Shown here piece by piece: positions 1 through 5,585 of a stretch of DNA of 21,293 nucleotides. This stretch comes from a virus. The notes below the pieces were generated by a model, which was not told where the DNA came from, did no database searches, and saw only the letters and a list, made by a program, of their open reading frames with translations. The stretch lies in the IMG/VR virus record IMGVR_UViG_3300042515_001939, positions 1-21,293 of that record; one strand, written 5' to 3'. Position 1 is the stretch's first letter, and each line of letters opens with the position of its first letter. Made by a program: the position numbers and the translations under genes.

Positions 1-13
1 CGCGATAGCCCCT

Positions 14-33
14 TGTCCCTTTTGCGCTGTCCC
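14..33. repeat. Direct repeat TGTCCC x2 upstream of the first gene
   Basis: TGTCCC occurs at 14-19 and again at 28-33, a 14-base period, within a relatively AT-rich leader (TTTT and AAAAA runs) in an otherwise GC-rich window. It lies about 40 bases upstream of the first start codon. A direct repeat here could be a binding site for a regulator, but no clear -35/-10 pair goes with it. The function is unknown. Confidence 0.3.
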
Positions 34-69
34 AAAAATTGACGGCCTCCCGGCCGACAGGAACGAGCG

Positions 70-444
70 ATGAAGTCCTCCCGAACACGAGCCCAGCGGG
101 CAAAGCTGCCACCGGCGCCCTCGTCGACGCCCGACGTGTCCTACGCCGAGTACCTCCGTGCGAGCCTCATCCAGCTCGAGACGGCCGCCGTGAACGCAGC
201 CGAGGCCGGTAGCTGGCAAGCCGTGTCGACGCTCAAGCTCCGCGCCCTCGACTGCCGCGTACGGCTCGACGAGGAGATCGCGAAGGCGAGCTCGCCAGAC
301 GCGTCGATGTCTGACGAGCAGCTCCTGTCGATCATCGTGGCCGCCGTCGCGTCGATGCCGCCGCAACACCTCGAGCGCATCGAGGACGCCGTCGACATGC
401 GCCGCGGCGGCAAGGTGGTACGGCTCGCGAGTGGGGGCGCGTGA
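70..444 (+). CDS. Small phage protein of unknown function (possible packaging accessory)
   Basis: This 124-aa protein has a basic, Pro/Ser-rich N-terminus (residues 1-22), then a mostly alpha-helical core (SYAEYLRASLIQLE, about residues 24-75) with the phrase AAEAGSWQAVSTLKLRALDCR. Its C-terminal half is again helical and ends in a basic stretch. ATG at 70 is chosen because AGGA at 59-62 sits 7 bases upstream. Small helical proteins at the left end of packaging operons are sometimes terminase small subunits. I see no clear DNA-binding helix-turn-helix, and four genes rather than none separate it from the large terminase, so that role is only a possibility. The gene is followed by a 49-base gap holding the promoter of the next gene, so the two are probably separate transcription units. 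Confidence 0.7.
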   Translation: MKSSRTRAQRAKLPPAPSSTPDVSYAEYLRASLIQLETAAVNAAEAGSWQAVSTLKLRALDCRVRLDEEIAKASSPDASMSDEQLLSIIVAAVASMPPQHLERIEDAVDMRRGGKVVRLASGGA

Positions 445-457
445 GCCTCTCCGCTGG

Positions 458-487
458 TTGACATGTTGTCATTCGTTCGTGTACATT
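458..487 (+). promoter_or_regulatory. Sigma70-like promoter of the helix-turn-helix gene, predicted leaderless
   Basis: A consensus -35 TTGACA (458-463) is followed by an 18-base spacer and a -10 TACATT (482-487, four of six consensus positions). With the usual 6-7 bases from the -10 to the start site, transcription would begin at about 494, which is the A of the ATG of the next gene. No Shine-Dalgarno sequence precedes that ATG. The mRNA is therefore predicted to be leaderless. Confidence 0.6.
459..471. promoter_or_regulatory. Inverted repeat TGACA-N3-TGTCA over the -35 box (candidate operator)
   Basis: A perfect 5+5 inverted repeat, TGACA (459-463) and TGTCA (467-471), overlaps the -35 box. 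A second palindrome, TGACGTCA (487-494), covers the end of the -10 box and the predicted start site. Both are well placed for a dimeric XRE repressor acting on its own promoter. A near copy of the first repeat lies over the capsid promoter at 6484-6496. Confidence 0.5.
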
Positions 488-493
488 GACGTC

Positions 494-766
494 ATGCCAA
501 CATCATCTCGCTTTGCTGAACTCGCGCGCTCCTGGCGCCCCGATGGCTTGACACAGGCTGAGGCGGCTCGCCTGCTTCGTGTCGTCCCGAGCACACTCAA
601 CAAGATCGAGCAGGGCGAGCGCGGCGCGGCGCCGTGGGTGCTCGACAGGATGGCGGAGGTCTACGGCCTCTACCCCGACGACATCGCGGCGGGAGTGGCC
701 GCGCTCGCGGCTGACTACGAGGCCCGTCGAGTAGACGATGTCGCCGTCGAAGTGGAGGGCCTGTGA
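494..766 (+). CDS. XRE-family helix-turn-helix regulator
   Basis: This 90-aa protein has an XRE/Cro-type helix-turn-helix at about residues 19-62: LTQAEAARLLRV (first helix pair), then VPSTLNKIEQGER (recognition helix and the conserved IExGxR phrase), then WVLDRMAEVYGLYPDDI. The length and fold match small dimeric phage repressors and also the controller (C) proteins of restriction-modification systems. ATG at 494 is chosen over an upstream GTG because the protein then begins directly before the domain and the promoter places the transcript start there. The stop overlaps the GTG of the methyltransferase gene (GTGA), so the two are translationally coupled. It probably binds the inverted repeats in its own promoter. 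Whether it represses or activates cannot be told from sequence. Confidence 0.88.
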   Translation: MPTSSRFAELARSWRPDGLTQAEAARLLRVVPSTLNKIEQGERGAAPWVLDRMAEVYGLYPDDIAAGVAALAADYEARRVDDVAVEVEGL

Positions 767-1923
767 TCTCCTCTCATCCAGCCGCCGAGCTGTTCCCATT
801 CATGTCCGACGAGGAGCTTGCCGAGCTCGCCGCCGACATCCGCGCCCACGGCCTCCTCGAACCCATCGTGCTGCTCGGCGGCCTGGTGCTCGACGGACGC
901 AACCGCCTCCGCGCGTGCGAGGCGGCCGGCGTCGAGCCGAGCTTCATCGAGTGGGACGGGAGCGGCGACCCGGCGGTGTGGGTGATCTCGAAGAACCTCA
1001 AGCGGCGCCACCTCGACACGTCGCAGCGGGCGAGGATTGCACCCAAGCTCCTCGAGTACTACGCCGCGGCGGCGAAGGAGCGGCACCGGGAAGGGAGCCG
1101 CGTCGGCGGGGTGGGCGGGAAGGTTATTGCAAATTTGCAAGAACCTTCCGAGCCTACCAGCCACGAACGGACAGCCAACGCCGCCGTTGCAGCCGTGCTC
1201 AACGTCTCCCCCCGCAGCGTTGCACACGCCGTGACGGTGACTGAGGACGGCGTCCCGGAACTTGTCGCCGCGGTGGATCGCGGGGTGCTCGCGGTGTCGG
1301 CCGCAGCCGAGGCGACCCAGTTCGAGCCCGAGGAGCAGCGCCGCGTGGTTGAGCTCGTCGAGGCGGGCGCGTCGGGCGCCGAGGCCATCCGCGAGATCAA
1401 GCGCCCGCACGTCGCGAACAACAGCGGGGATAACGAGTGGTACACGCCGCCCGAGTTCATCGAGGCCGCGCGCCTGGTGATGGGGAGCATCGACCTTGAT
1501 CCCGCATCCTCCGAGGTGGCCAACCGCACGGTGGGCGCCGAGCGCATCTACACGGCGGCCGACGACGGCCTCAAGCTCGTGTGGGAGGGGCGCGTCTGGA
1601 TGAACCCCCCCTACGAGAAGGGACTTATCGACCGCTTCGCCGAGAAGCTCCGCGCCGAGGTGGCGGCCGGCAACGTCAAGGAAGCCGTGATCCTCGTCAA
1701 TAACGCGACGGACACGCGCTGGTTCGCCACGCTCTGCGAGGTAGCCAGCATGATCTGCTTCCCTACTGGCCGCATCCGCTTCCACAAGCCCGACGGCGAA
1801 CGCGGGGCGCCCTTGCAAGGGCAAGCGGTCATCTACATCGGTGGCCACCATGAGGGGTTCGCTCGCGCGTTCGCCAGCTTCGGCATGGTCGCGAAGGTGG
1901 TCGCGAAGGTGGTCGATGGATAA
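763..1923 (+). CDS. ParB-like domain fused to phage DNA N6-adenine methyltransferase
   Basis: This 386-aa protein has two parts. Residues 5-110 form a ParB/Srx-like domain (HPAAELFPFM, GLLEPIVLLGGLVLDGRNRLRA without the break, ISKNLKRRHL). A helix-turn-helix like that of KorB/ParB follows at about 137-160 (ANAAVAAVLNVSPRSVAHA). Residues 222-375 match phage DNA N-6-adenine methyltransferases (Dam, PF05869 type): N224-EWYTPP, SIDLDPASSEVAN, and the catalytic NPPY at 281-284. It would transfer a methyl group from S-adenosylmethionine to adenine; the target site is unknown. GTG at 763 is preceded by GGAGGG (754-759) and overlaps the regulator stop. The stop overlaps the nuclease start by 8 bases. 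A 32-bp palindrome lies in the linker (residues 119-129). The C-terminus carries a short duplicated unit (VAKVVAKVV). Phage roles for such enzymes include protection from host restriction and timing of packaging; which applies here is unknown. Confidence 0.9.
   Translation: MISSHPAAELFPFMSDEELAELAADIRAHGLLEPIVLLGGLVLDGRNRLRACEAAGVEPSFIEWDGSGDPAVWVISKNLKRRHLDTSQRARIAPKLLEYYAAAAKERHREGSRVGGVGGKVIANLQEPSEPTSHERTANAAVAAVLNVSPRSVAHAVTVTEDGVPELVAAVDRGVLAVSAAAEATQFEPEEQRRVVELVEAGASGAEAIREIKRPHVANNSGDNEWYTPPEFIEAARLVMGSIDLDPASSEVANRTVGAERIYTAADDGLKLVWEGRVWMNPPYEKGLIDRFAEKLRAEVAAGNVKEAVILVNNATDTRWFATLCEVASMICFPTGRIRFHKPDGERGAPLQGQAVIYIGGHHEGFARAFASFGMVAKVVAKVVDG
1118..1149. repeat. 32-bp near-perfect palindrome inside the ParB-methyltransferase gene
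   Basis: Arms of 16 bases match at 15 of 16 positions. Outer parts are GGAAGGTT (1118-1125) and AACCTTCC (1142-1149), and the core is the perfect 14-bp palindrome TTGCAAATTTGCAA (1127-1140). The only mismatched pair is A1126/G1141. The AT-rich core stands out in this GC-rich gene. It lies in the linker between the ParB-like domain and the helix-turn-helix. It could be a protein-binding site (parS-like) or form an mRNA hairpin. Confidence 0.85.
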
Positions 1924-2500
1924 GGCCACCTTCCTCCGAAATCTGGAGTACGGCCACATCGGCGAAGAGTTCGCCCGTCGGCACCTCGCCTTGTGCGGGC
2001 ATCATGTTGTTTCCGTCTACGCGGACGCAGAAAACAAGGCGCCCAAAGTTTACGTCGGCGACCGCATGATAACGGCCGCCGACCTGTTCTTCGTCGACGC
2101 CAAAGGCCGTGCCAATTGGGTCGAGGTCAAGAGCAAGACGAAGCCGGGCTACAAGTACAGCGGTCTTCATCGCGGGTTCGAGCATGGCGTTGACTTGCGC
2201 CACTTCGATGGCGACTATCGAGAGCAGGCGTCGCGCGCGCTGTTCTGGCTTGTCGTGCGCGAAGAGCTCACCATGCCGGGCGGTGATCCCGCCTGGGTGC
2301 CGCCGCCCGCGCCGAAGGGCGCTGACGGAAAGCCGGACTATCGCGATTACGAGCGCCACTTGGTGCCCGGCCCAGTGTGGCGAGCCATCTCGTTTAGGGA
2401 TGCCGAGAGGCTGGGCCGACGTGTCGACGGCTGGTCTGGTCATAAGGCCGGCTGGTTGTGGCCCGTCTCCGCTATGACCCGGTTTACGTTGATCGAATGA
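1916..2500 (+). CDS. Putative PD-(D/E)XK nuclease
   Basis: This 194-aa protein has the layout of a PD-(D/E)XK nuclease: an early helix with glutamates (GHIGEEFARRHLALCG, residues 13-28), an acidic residue at the start of a strand (D56 in AADLFFVDA), and the E-x-K signature (E70 and K72 in WVEVKSKTK). The phrase HRGFEHGVDLRHFDGDYREQA after it is also typical of phage and restriction-like nucleases of this group. It would cut DNA with a divalent metal; the substrate is unknown. ATG at 1916 is chosen because it overlaps the methyltransferase stop (ATGGATAA) and has AAGGTGG at 1906-1912; an earlier in-frame start at 1841 would add 25 low-complexity residues. Its stop overlaps the terminase ATG. 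Pairing with the upstream methyltransferase suggests a modification/restriction pair; a recombination or packaging nuclease is the alternative. Confidence 0.75.
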   Translation: MDKATFLRNLEYGHIGEEFARRHLALCGHHVVSVYADAENKAPKVYVGDRMITAADLFFVDAKGRANWVEVKSKTKPGYKYSGLHRGFEHGVDLRHFDGDYREQASRALFWLVVREELTMPGGDPAWVPPPAPKGADGKPDYRDYERHLVPGPVWRAISFRDAERLGRRVDGWSGHKAGWLWPVSAMTRFTLIE

Positions 2501-3882
2501 GCCTCTCCGCGCTCGCGTCGGCCGCGCACGTCCTCGGGCAGCGGGCGCACGCCGACCCGCTCGCCTATTACCGGCCGACGCCGCCTCAACTGCGTTTCCT
2601 CCAGAGCACAAGCCAGATCAAGCTGTTCCGCGCCGGCAACCAGGCCGGGAAAACCTGGGCCGGCGTCGCGGATTGCATCTGGCGCTGTCTCGGCGCGCAC
2701 CCGCACACGCTGGTCAAGTCCGCGCCCATCGAGGCCTGGGTCGTCGTCGTGTCGTGGGAGCAGTCGCTCTCCATCCAGGGCAAGATCTGGCAGCTGTTGC
2801 CCAAGGATCAGATCGAGGGCGACTGCGAGTACACGCCGGGCAAGGGCTTCCGGGGCAAGGTGCCCATCGTCCGATTCAAGAACGGCAGCATCCTCCGTAT
2901 CCGCACCGTCAACCAGGGCGCGCTGGCGCTCGCGGGCGCGACGATCGACTACGTCCTCATCGACGAGCCGCCGCCTGAGGCCATCTGGTCCGAGCTCGCC
3001 GCGCGCGTGCTTCGCCAGCGAGGCCGCATCGCCATCACGCTCACGCCCATCGGCCTGCCGCTCGGCTGGCTTCGCGCGCTGGTTGAGTCCGGCGAGGTGG
3101 AGGACATCCACACGCCGCTCACCGTCGAGGCCACGACACCCATCGGCGGGCGTCCGCTCCTGCGGGCCGACGACATCGCGAAGCTCGAAGCCCAGGTGCT
3201 CCCGATGGAGCGTGCCCAGCGCATCCACGGCGAGTGGGAGGCCGGGTTCACCGAGGGGCGGGTGTTTGTGCAGTTCGACCACACGACCATGGTGCGCGAC
3301 GAGGCGCCGACGGGCGAAGCGCAGATCGCGATCGGCATCGACCACGGGAAGGAGAGCGGCGCGCAAACGGCGGTCATGGTGGCGGTCACGCGCTCGCGAG
3401 ACAACGAGCCCCGGATCACGGTGCTCGATGTCGTGAGCTCGAACGGGATGACGACACCCGAGGATGACGCCGCGCAGATCCTGTCGATGATCAAGCGCGC
3501 CGGCCTCCGGTGGGAACAGATTGACCGCTGGGTCGGCGACCGCGCCGCCGTGTCGCGACGTGGGGGCGCGCTGAAGAGCAACGCGCTGCTCGTCCAGGCG
3601 TTCGAGAAGACGCTCAAGATCCCGATCGGGACGTGGCCCGGAAGGATTCACACGGCGTACAAGCCCGCCGGCTCCGTGTTCCACGGCTACCGCGTGCTCC
3701 AGGCCGCGATGCTACGGGGCGACTTCGTGATTCACCCGCGCTGCAAGCGCCTTATCGACGACCTCGGCAAGTTCGACGGGCGCGCCGCCTCCGAGCACAA
3801 ACACACGATAGACGCGCTACGCTACGCGCTCGAGCTCGTGACGCGTCGGCAGTACCAGCCGCAGCTCCTCCGCATCGGATAG
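2497..3882 (+). CDS. terL: Terminase large subunit (packaging ATPase/nuclease)
   Basis: This protein pumps DNA into the prohead and cuts it. It is 461 aa from ATG 2497, which overlaps the nuclease stop (ATGA); a GTG at 2458 in the same frame would add 13 residues. The ATPase domain shows Walker A RAGNQAGKT (residues 45-53) and Walker B YVLIDEPP with D156 and E157. The RNase H-like nuclease domain shows D282 in IGIDHG, D348 in VGDRAA and D439 in the C-terminal HTIDALRYALEL, the usual three acidic positions. The length is normal for the family. No clear small terminase gene is adjacent, which is unusual. The portal gene follows 8 bases after the stop. The identification is firm; the packaging type (cos or headful) cannot be judged. 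Confidence 0.95.
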   Translation: MSLSALASAAHVLGQRAHADPLAYYRPTPPQLRFLQSTSQIKLFRAGNQAGKTWAGVADCIWRCLGAHPHTLVKSAPIEAWVVVVSWEQSLSIQGKIWQLLPKDQIEGDCEYTPGKGFRGKVPIVRFKNGSILRIRTVNQGALALAGATIDYVLIDEPPPEAIWSELAARVLRQRGRIAITLTPIGLPLGWLRALVESGEVEDIHTPLTVEATTPIGGRPLLRADDIAKLEAQVLPMERAQRIHGEWEAGFTEGRVFVQFDHTTMVRDEAPTGEAQIAIGIDHGKESGAQTAVMVAVTRSRDNEPRITVLDVVSSNGMTTPEDDAAQILSMIKRAGLRWEQIDRWVGDRAAVSRRGGALKSNALLVQAFEKTLKIPIGTWPGRIHTAYKPAGSVFHGYRVLQAAMLRGDFVIHPRCKRLIDDLGKFDGRAASEHKHTIDALRYALELVTRRQYQPQLLRIG

Positions 3883-3890
3883 GATGACGC

Positions 3891-5585
3891 ATGAACGCCA
3901 GCATGACCGCCCCGATGCCGCCCGCGCCCGGCAACCCTGACGAGGCCCGCCGCGTCGAGCACACGCGGCACCGGTACGCGATGATGGAGGGGCGGTGGCA
4001 GCCCATCCTCGAGAGCTACATGGAGACGCAGCTCGGCTCCGTGCGCCGGGCCGCCATGGGTCTCGTGGACATCAGCTATTGCGCGCTCCGGACCACGTCG
4101 TACGAGCTCGCGACGCTGTACGACGCCGAGCCCGACGTGCGCCACAACCAGCTTGCCTCCCCGAACATCGACAGGCTCGTCGGCTCGGCGGGCTCGATCG
4201 CGCGCTCCGGCCTCTGGTCGCAGATGTCGAGGTTTCAAGCGTACACTCTCGCGTTGCGCGAAATGTGGATGCGCGCCGATGTCGAGGACGGGCGCCTCGT
4301 CTACCGGCCGGTCCCGCCGCACATGACGATGGCCGAGGCCGATCCGGCGCGCCCCAACGTGCCCACGCTGTTCGGCGAGCTGCGACTCCGTCAGGTCGAC
4401 GGACAGCTCATGTGGACGTTCGAGGTCTGGGACATTCGCAACCTCGCGAACCCTACCTACCGGGTAGTCGAGGCGCTCGACGGGTGGAAGTTCGGGCGCG
4501 ACCTGACGCGCCTCGTGCACGGCGCGACCTACGACGGCGCCAACTACCCGGCGTCCTGGCGCCGCTCGAACGGGACGCCGATCATCCCGGCGATCCTCTA
4601 CCACGCGTCCACGTACGGCGATCGGCTCTTCGATCCGTTCGCCAACATCGAGCTTTACACGGGCTCGCTCCAGCTCGGGCTCTTCTACTCGTACCTTGCC
4701 CACTGCATCCGCGACGCCAGCTACCCGCAACGGTACGCGGTGGGCGTCCGTGTCGCCGGCATGGATGCGTCAGACCTCGGGAGCCGCGCCGCGCGCTCCG
4801 AGGTGACGACGGACCCGACGACGATCCTCATGCTCGATCCCATCGCGGAGACGAGCCAGCCGATGATGGGGCAGTACCAGGCCGGCGCGGACGTGGAGAA
4901 GCTCGAGGCGGTGATCGCCGCGGTGGCGCACCGGCTCGCGACGGACGCCGGCCTCGCGCCGTCGGAGCTCCAGCGGACAAGCGGCTCCGCGCGCTCGGGC
5001 TACGCCATCTCGCTCTCCCAGGAAGGCAAGCGCCAAGCGCAGCGCCGGTACATCATGCAGTTCCGCGCGTCGGACGAGGCCCTTGTCGGCTTGTCGGCGG
5101 TGCTCTACAACCGCTGGAGCGAAGCGAACACGGAGCCGACGAACTACCCGGAAGGCGGGTACTCCGTCATCTACCGCGAGATCCCGCTGTCGCCGCAAGA
5201 GATGGAGGCGCGACGGAAGCACGTCTTGGAAATGCTTGCCGCCGGGCTCATGTCCGAGGTGGACGCGCTCCGCTTCTTCGGGAGCCTGTCCGAGCAGGAC
5301 GCGATTGCTCAGCTCGCCGCGATTCGCACCATGCGGACAGAGGCCCCGCCGACGTCGCCGCCGGAAGGAGGAACGACGCCAACGCCGACGGCGCCTGCCG
5401 ACGACGTATCCCACGCCGAGGCCATGGCCGAAGCGGTGGACGAGCTGGTAGCGTCCGAGGAGGCCGTCGCTTTGCTCCTCGAAGCGGCGACCGGCGACCA
5501 GGCCGACACGCTACGCGACCTGCTCGCCAGCATCCGCGAGGCCCGCGGCTACCTGACGGGCGCTCCTGTCGAGGCCGCCGAGTAG
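3891..5585 (+). CDS. Portal protein
   Basis: This 564-aa protein lies directly after the large terminase, the usual place for the portal, the dodecameric ring at the capsid vertex through which DNA enters and leaves. Sequence features fit: N-terminal helices (HTRHRYAMMEGRWQPILESY), a middle section of mixed strands (MWTFEVWDIRNLANPTYRVVEA), then the long helical region (VEKLEAVIAAVAHRLATDAG and SAIRSGYAISLSQEGKR-like phrase at about residues 363-380). A typical portal tail part follows (PLSPQEMEARRKHVLEMLAAGLMS without its continuation). The last 100 residues are a Pro/Thr-rich linker and an acidic helical tail. ATG at 3891 has AGGA (3881-3884), which overlaps the terminase stop. The next gene starts inside the stop codon. 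Assignment rests on position, length and overall pattern. Confidence 0.88.
   Translation: MNASMTAPMPPAPGNPDEARRVEHTRHRYAMMEGRWQPILESYMETQLGSVRRAAMGLVDISYCALRTTSYELATLYDAEPDVRHNQLASPNIDRLVGSAGSIARSGLWSQMSRFQAYTLALREMWMRADVEDGRLVYRPVPPHMTMAEADPARPNVPTLFGELRLRQVDGQLMWTFEVWDIRNLANPTYRVVEALDGWKFGRDLTRLVHGATYDGANYPASWRRSNGTPIIPAILYHASTYGDRLFDPFANIELYTGSLQLGLFYSYLAHCIRDASYPQRYAVGVRVAGMDASDLGSRAARSEVTTDPTTILMLDPIAETSQPMMGQYQAGADVEKLEAVIAAVAHRLATDAGLAPSELQRTSGSARSGYAISLSQEGKRQAQRRYIMQFRASDEALVGLSAVLYNRWSEANTEPTNYPEGGYSVIYREIPLSPQEMEARRKHVLEMLAAGLMSEVDALRFFGSLSEQDAIAQLAAIRTMRTEAPPTSPPEGGTTPTPTAPADDVSHAEAMAEAVDELVASEEAVALLLEAATGDQADTLRDLLASIREARGYLTGAPVEAAE

Follow-up and report, generated by a model that had tools for sequence, protein, structure and literature searches.

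A methyltransferase and predicted nuclease gene pair found as cargo at the terS-terL junction of a phage group

Three overlapping genes precede the large terminase gene in the phage sequence analysed here, an IMG/VR virus record of 21,293 bp (the window). They code an XRE-family HTH protein (XRE), an adenine methyltransferase fused to a ParB-like domain (MT) and a predicted PD-(D/E)XK nuclease (NUC). An earlier note read them as a controller-methyltransferase-nuclease (C-M-R) operon of restriction-modification type built into the packaging operon. The locus raises the questions of whether the three genes belong together, whether they belong to packaging, and what the pair MT+NUC might do for the phage. 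The features of the region are the following:

1..69, + strand: fixed genome left end, cos-proximal leader; many independent contigs start at the same base
70..444, + strand: TerS-like putative small terminase, 124 aa, found directly before TerL in empty-slot relatives
442..454, + strand: cassette left boundary, a 13-bp terL 5'-end remnant or duplicate, TGAGCCTCTCCGC
458..487, + strand: sigma70-like promoter TTGACA-18-TACATT, the sole promoter-like match in window 1-4000
459..471, + strand: palindrome TGACATGTTGTCA over the -35, candidate XRE operator
487..494, + strand: palindrome TGACGTCA over the predicted +1/ATG, candidate second operator
494..766, + strand: XRE-family HTH protein, 90 aa (ATG 494, TGA 764-766)
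763..1923, + strand: MT, ParB-Dam fusion adenine methyltransferase, 386 aa (GTG 763, TAA 1921-1923)
1916..2500, + strand: NUC, predicted PD-(D/E)XK nuclease, 194 aa (ATG 1916, TGA 2498-2500)
1964-1966, 2081-2083, 2123-2125 and 2129-2131, + strand: predicted NUC active site E17, D56, E70 and K72
2497..3882, + strand: large terminase TerL, 461 aa (Terminase_6N 1e-9, phrog_2 8e-18)
2498-2510, + strand: right boundary repeat, the first 13 nt of terL after its A and an exact copy of 442-454

A cargo slot between terS and terL

The open reading frames bear out the three overlapping genes of the earlier note, with overlaps of 4, 8 and 4 nt for XRE/MT, MT/NUC and NUC/TerL, the last one joining the NUC stop to the TerL ATG at 2497 as had been claimed. 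An alternative in-frame GTG for TerL is present at 2458, and TerL of empty-slot relatives begins at the equivalent of 2497. The TerS-like protein has no significant family match.

Comparison of 49 loci, mostly from one phage group, obtained by a TerL search of IMG/VR identifies the terS-terL junction as a cargo slot in which the window cassette is inserted at 442-2497. TerL is 93-99% identical across phages whose slot is empty (L070, L075-L077) or carries differing cargo. The latter is XRE-MT-NUC in the window and L002-L005 (the end of NUC is found in L006 and L059), a DPPY methyltransferase in L060-L063, L071, L074, L078 and L079, and N6/N4 methyltransferases in L064-L067 (Pfam 5e-26 for L065 and 2e-15 for L066). 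L003 has tandem cassettes, the end of a DPPY methyltransferase being followed by XRE-MT-NUC. A weakly D12-like methyltransferase is the cargo of L091 (TerL 68%), and the slot is mostly empty in the remaining more distant members (TerL 67-89%). The slot cargo is a recognisable DNA-modification gene in every case examined.

Mom-like cargo without a methyltransferase occurs at L069:3556-3984 and L089:4330-4758 (L089 TerL 82%); the protein matches phrog_1384 (4e-33) and XF1762_fam (1e-47). The DPPY methyltransferase of the slot (e.g. L060:450-1631) has two hypervariable segments, alignment columns 121-180 and 261-300, with 11-23% pairwise identity, flanked by constant parts that are ~70-97% identical (L060, L061, L062, L071, L074, L078, L079). 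The hypervariable modules are alike in either position and L060 has QWSFRRGEPDSGF in both, so that by their sequences they look as if they were shuffled target-recognition segments. A further ParB-methyltransferase fusion is coded just upstream of the TerS-like gene at L074:1-1215 and L079:1-1215; modification genes are thus present on both sides of terS in some relatives.

The empty slot reads GGGCGCGTGAGCCTCTCCGCGC, a junction at which the TerS stop codon and the TerL GTG share bases. The 13-nt repeat of the terL start in the window begins at the TerS stop codon, and the Mom-like cassettes also retain a similar terL-start remnant. As the empty junction is already coupled and the terL start is repeated, the overlap between NUC and TerL is a product of cassette insertion into a pre-existing coupled junction. 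Upstream of terS, independent contigs begin exactly at CGCGATAGCCCC (or CGCGTTAGCC), window 1-12, and other contigs read through CCCCCCGACC from upstream replication genes. Contig starts suggest that this fixed genome end is likely cos.

Regulator, methyltransferase and nuclease

XRE has Pfam matches to HTH_31 (1e-11) and HTH_3. Its gene is preceded by the promoter at 458-487, the one sigma70-like match observed in window 1-4000, where shuffled sequences have a mean of 0.3; its counterpart in L004 has TATATT in place of TACATT. The promoter ends 7 nt 5' of the XRE ATG, so that the leaderless XRE mRNA put forward in the earlier note is plausible. The motif TGACN(0-5)GTCA occurs twice in the whole 21 kb, both times at the cassette promoter (459-471 and 487-494). 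Promoter and palindromes fit an autoregulated leaderless XRE mRNA with XRE as the putative operator-binding protein, and XRE is the probable regulator of the cassette. This gene is restricted to the window's own lineage, and no XRE relative or HTH gene is found directly upstream of the distant MT-NUC loci inspected. Control by a C protein is therefore not general: the pair MT+NUC is what is conserved, not a C-M-R trio. The window genes do follow the C-M-R order cited for type II operons, yet not the common C-controlled layout. The usual one is C-R, the M gene being separate or divergent.

MT matches the Pfam Dam family (PF05869, 3e-14) with 53.6 bits against a curated cut-off of 28.1, and phrog_111 with 1e-39. 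Its amino terminus has a sub-threshold ParB_N Pfam match and hits ParB-like PHROGs down to 9e-17. The Dam domain, whose NPPY motif is coded at 1603-1614, aligns with M.Phi93DAM (27% identity, E 4e-9, NPPY included), the product of L132:2368-2790 (Pfam Dam 6e-34). By analogy with this single enzyme, MT is likely specific for GATC. The window has 132 GATC sites (O/E 0.89) and does not avoid the motif, so that a GATC nuclease could attack the genome if it were unmethylated; GATC avoidance does not distinguish the slot cargo types. CTAG is absent from window 1-21293 (0 observed, 16.5 expected), GATC being near expectation. The ParB-HTH middle of MT is variable (residues 91-170, window 1033-1272), which may mean that the DNA-binding part has recombined or diversified. 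Residues 91-150 are only 37-43% identical to those of L003/L004, most of the flanking sequence being 87-100% identical.

NUC has no match in Pfam, PHROG, NCBIfam, PADLOC or PDB sequences, solved restriction enzymes included. Its sole PDB profile match is the Hjc-type 2eo0, which is not significant (E 0.26). The PD-(D/E)XK assignment comes from homologues, active-site conservation and an AlphaFold2 model. Residues E17, D56, E70 and K72 are invariant in 83/83 sequences (a set clustered at 85% plus the window), the conservation of E70 and K72 being partly built into the search patterns; both are retained in 30 representatives matched by none of the catalytic-strand search patterns. Within the window lineage NUC is under purifying selection, with dN/dS of 0.16-0.38. 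The model, built from 76 sequences, has pLDDT 79.8 and pTM 0.74. A Foldseek search with it found nothing in PDB at E<=1e-3, and the structural comparisons therefore rest on VIA-align. The closest solved folds are those of the SPARDA nuclease (Z 12.0) and of Hjc resolvases (Z 11.9; 2.8 A, 115 residues), followed by I-Ssp6803I (Z 9.2) and by RecU, NhoI/Eco15I and DpnI at Z 9-7. The orthodox restriction enzymes EcoRV, HincII, MspI and SwaI reach only Z 6-7. The modelled fold alone does not decide the function of NUC. The nuclease call of the earlier note is upheld by the intact active site; a match to a recombination family had been one of its refuting conditions, and the presence of Hjc, a recombination nuclease, among the nearest folds leaves room for an alternative.

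The gene pair across viral lineages

Distant NUC homologues first emerged from unrelated viral contigs, and only among the genes that come right after a Dam methyltransferase. Relatives were then collected in searches seeded with NUC alone, pooled with a few loci first met through MT, which gave 135 loci in 86 lineages at 90% identity, of which two are cut by contig ends and 84 are informative; the loci come from motif-anchored scans and these counts describe the reach of the motifs. Single-sequence NUC searches of isolated phages, plasmids and GTDB genomes yielded no convincing relative. None of 50,697 isolated-phage records has one and GTDB genomes have only three, all others being found in uncultured viral contigs.

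A methyltransferase gene lies immediately upstream of NUC in 81 of the 84 informative lineages (96%). The partner is a Dam protein in 70 of them (69 assigned by script, and L232 by eye), MT-A70 in 10, and in one, L182, a ParB-N6_N4-like fusion with DPPYN...DPFMGVGT, also assigned by eye. The frames of methyltransferase and NUC overlap in 101/116 pairs. As a control, the first gene downstream of NUC is not conserved, its largest family accounting for 6/75. On the NUC tree the type of partner changed several times, with a methyltransferase staying in place. Judged by this gene order, MT and NUC form a true two-gene module. The correlation between NUC and Dam distances is weak (r 0.15) and the distances are large; no co-evolution is therefore claimed. 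Outside the window lineage MT+NUC mostly adjoins replication genes, and TerL makes up 4/140 downstream proteins.

The exceptions among the 84 lineages are L104, L106 and L120, where NUC has no methyltransferase immediately upstream. A C5 methyltransferase is found two genes away from NUC in L106 and L107. The contigs of L104-L107 and L120 are fragments and carry no Dam gene, and no Dam, N6_N4 or C5 methyltransferase is present on the partial contigs of L104/L105 and L120.

A second, seemingly unrelated small PD-(D/E)XK-like gene, A3, is coded immediately after many further Dam methyltransferases of phages. Its product has D-x-D, E and G-Q motifs, members include L010:5462-5932, L042:2412-2855 and L023:1182-1616, and S/T replaces the catalytic K in one subgroup. 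A3 does not align with NUC (hhalign probability 0.8%), and the two were not merged.

Proposed function, alternatives and known systems

The adjacent methyltransferase and the intact catalytic motif suggest that MT+NUC is restriction-modification-like. A near-obligate upstream methyltransferase whose type is repeatedly exchanged is expected of a nuclease that does harm when methylation is lacking, and is unexpected for a plain resolvase. The ParB-Dam enzyme, to judge from its family, would methylate adenines of the phage DNA, most likely in GATC, and the methylated DNA would be shielded from host restriction. NUC is probably translated together with the methyltransferase, since their reading frames overlap. 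Its conserved site points to an active PD-(D/E)XK endonuclease, which would cut DNA without the MT mark, whether that of the host chromosome or of a rival phage. The probable role of XRE is that of a repressor acting on its own leaderless promoter, and it would set the timing of the cassette apart from that of the late packaging operon.

The most likely division of labour, with MT as protector of the phage DNA and NUC as cutter of unmodified DNA, is, in our judgement, evenly balanced between right and wrong. The wider proposal is more tentative and falls somewhat short of an even chance: MT+NUC would be a widespread unnamed class of compact phage R-M module in which a Hjc/SPARDA-like NUC, able to change partners among Dam, MT-A70 and N6/N4 enzymes, is a modification-sensitive cutter that destroys host or rival DNA. 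Counting against a restriction role are the nearest NUC folds, Hjc and the SPARDA nuclease rather than an orthodox type II enzyme, the lack of any hit to PADLOC models or, by sequence, to solved restriction enzymes, the lineages L104/L105 and L120 with NUC and no Dam, N6_N4 or C5 methyltransferase on their partial contigs, and the low NUC-Dam correlation, a sign against tightly co-evolved specificities. Protection of phage DNA and exclusion of host or phage, much as in the earlier note, remain the best functional ideas.

NUC might instead be a Hjc-like Holliday-junction resolvase, or a branched-DNA nuclease, acting in replication and recombination, with the methyltransferase present by operon habit or guiding the site of cleavage. 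Hjc provides one of the best structural matches and the only profile match, albeit not a significant one; replication genes are the usual neighbours of MT+NUC, and the loci L104-L107 adjoin NinB-, RusA- or VRR_NUC-like genes. However, a resolvase has no known need for a directly upstream methyltransferase of three families, as seen in nearly all lineages, L106 already codes RusA just downstream, and the absence of the cassette from close relatives shows that it is dispensable. Because of the fold, the replication-gene neighbours and the three lineages lacking an adjoining methyltransferase, this, the main alternative, is kept as unlikely but deserving of some weight.

It is improbable that the cassette serves protection only, MT being an ordinary anti-restriction enzyme and NUC a nuclease-inactive accessory that binds DNA or lends specificity. 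In its favour, the other slot cargo is modification-only, and A3, the other small gene behind Dam, lost the catalytic K in a subgroup; the invariance of the four NUC catalytic residues and purifying selection speak against it. Still less credit is given to NUC as a homing-type endonuclease, which would spread the cassette by cutting empty terS-terL junctions. Repeats of the terL start mark this hotspot of insertion, NUC also resembles I-Ssp6803I, and an HNH gene occupies the slot of 936 phages, but most slot cargo lacks NUC, and NUC homologues elsewhere lie mostly off this junction and keep the methyltransferase. The methylation-dependent packaging switch of the earlier note, in which MT would mark a pac/cos-like site and cutting by NUC would control packaging initiation, draws on the translational overlap with TerL and the nearby genome end and is barely credible, given relatives with near-identical TerL whose slot is empty or holds other cargo and which lack both genes, the rarity of TerL next to the pair elsewhere, and a fixed contig start that suggests ordinary cos packaging. 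The link of the cassette to packaging is positional, not functional; of the operon first proposed, the M+R-like pair stands, while the conserved trio and the tie to packaging do not.

Restriction-modification sets of surveyed phages consist for the most part of methyltransferases that lack a cutting partner (PMC10711547). The present case is a methyltransferase-nuclease pair conserved in ~80 viral lineages, for which the family libraries searched offer no name. If NUC does cut unmethylated DNA, some methyltransferases regarded as orphan shields would each be one half of a system for attack. The slot itself is an example of DNA marks being swapped between phages at a constant site.

Viruses of eukaryotes are also known to have neighbouring genes for an adenine methyltransferase and an endonuclease: chloroviruses and marseilleviruses code CviAI/mel_015 with a GATC methyltransferase, for which host-DNA degradation or exclusion of rivals was proposed (PMC7019647, PMC7253447). 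Their likeness to MT+NUC is one of gene arrangement, cleavage by NUC being predicted. Phage ParB-methyltransferase fusions appear in surveys of polyvalent proteins and of ParB-CTPases, where, in the parts consulted, an anti-defence role is suggested (PMC5512222, PMC12704722). Like MT, these proteins join a ParB-like domain to a DNA methyltransferase; unlike the present case, a downstream NUC gene is not mentioned in those parts. NUC shares with archaeal Hjc resolvase the PD-(D/E)XK core and the same topology, to which it adds the conserved motifs K-G-P, R83, G-I-D and G-M, an insertion at ~119-150 and the near-obligate methyltransferase neighbour.

The closest parallel to the slot comes from lactococcal 936 phages, which have an insertion hotspot at terS-terL with methyltransferases that methylate phage DNA, among them M.Phi93DAM, which methylates GATC and blocks DpnII (PMC4190342, PMC4759559). 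The 936 hotspot (M.Phi93DAM, M.Phi93I, M.Phi145I) has the same position as that of the window, optional cargo, and adenine methyltransferases including PF05869 Dam, but belongs to unrelated phages and has HNH as its extra nuclease. Beyond the 936 cargo, the window group carries a Mom-like protein, methyltransferases with hypervariable segments, and MT+NUC with its own regulator and promoter.
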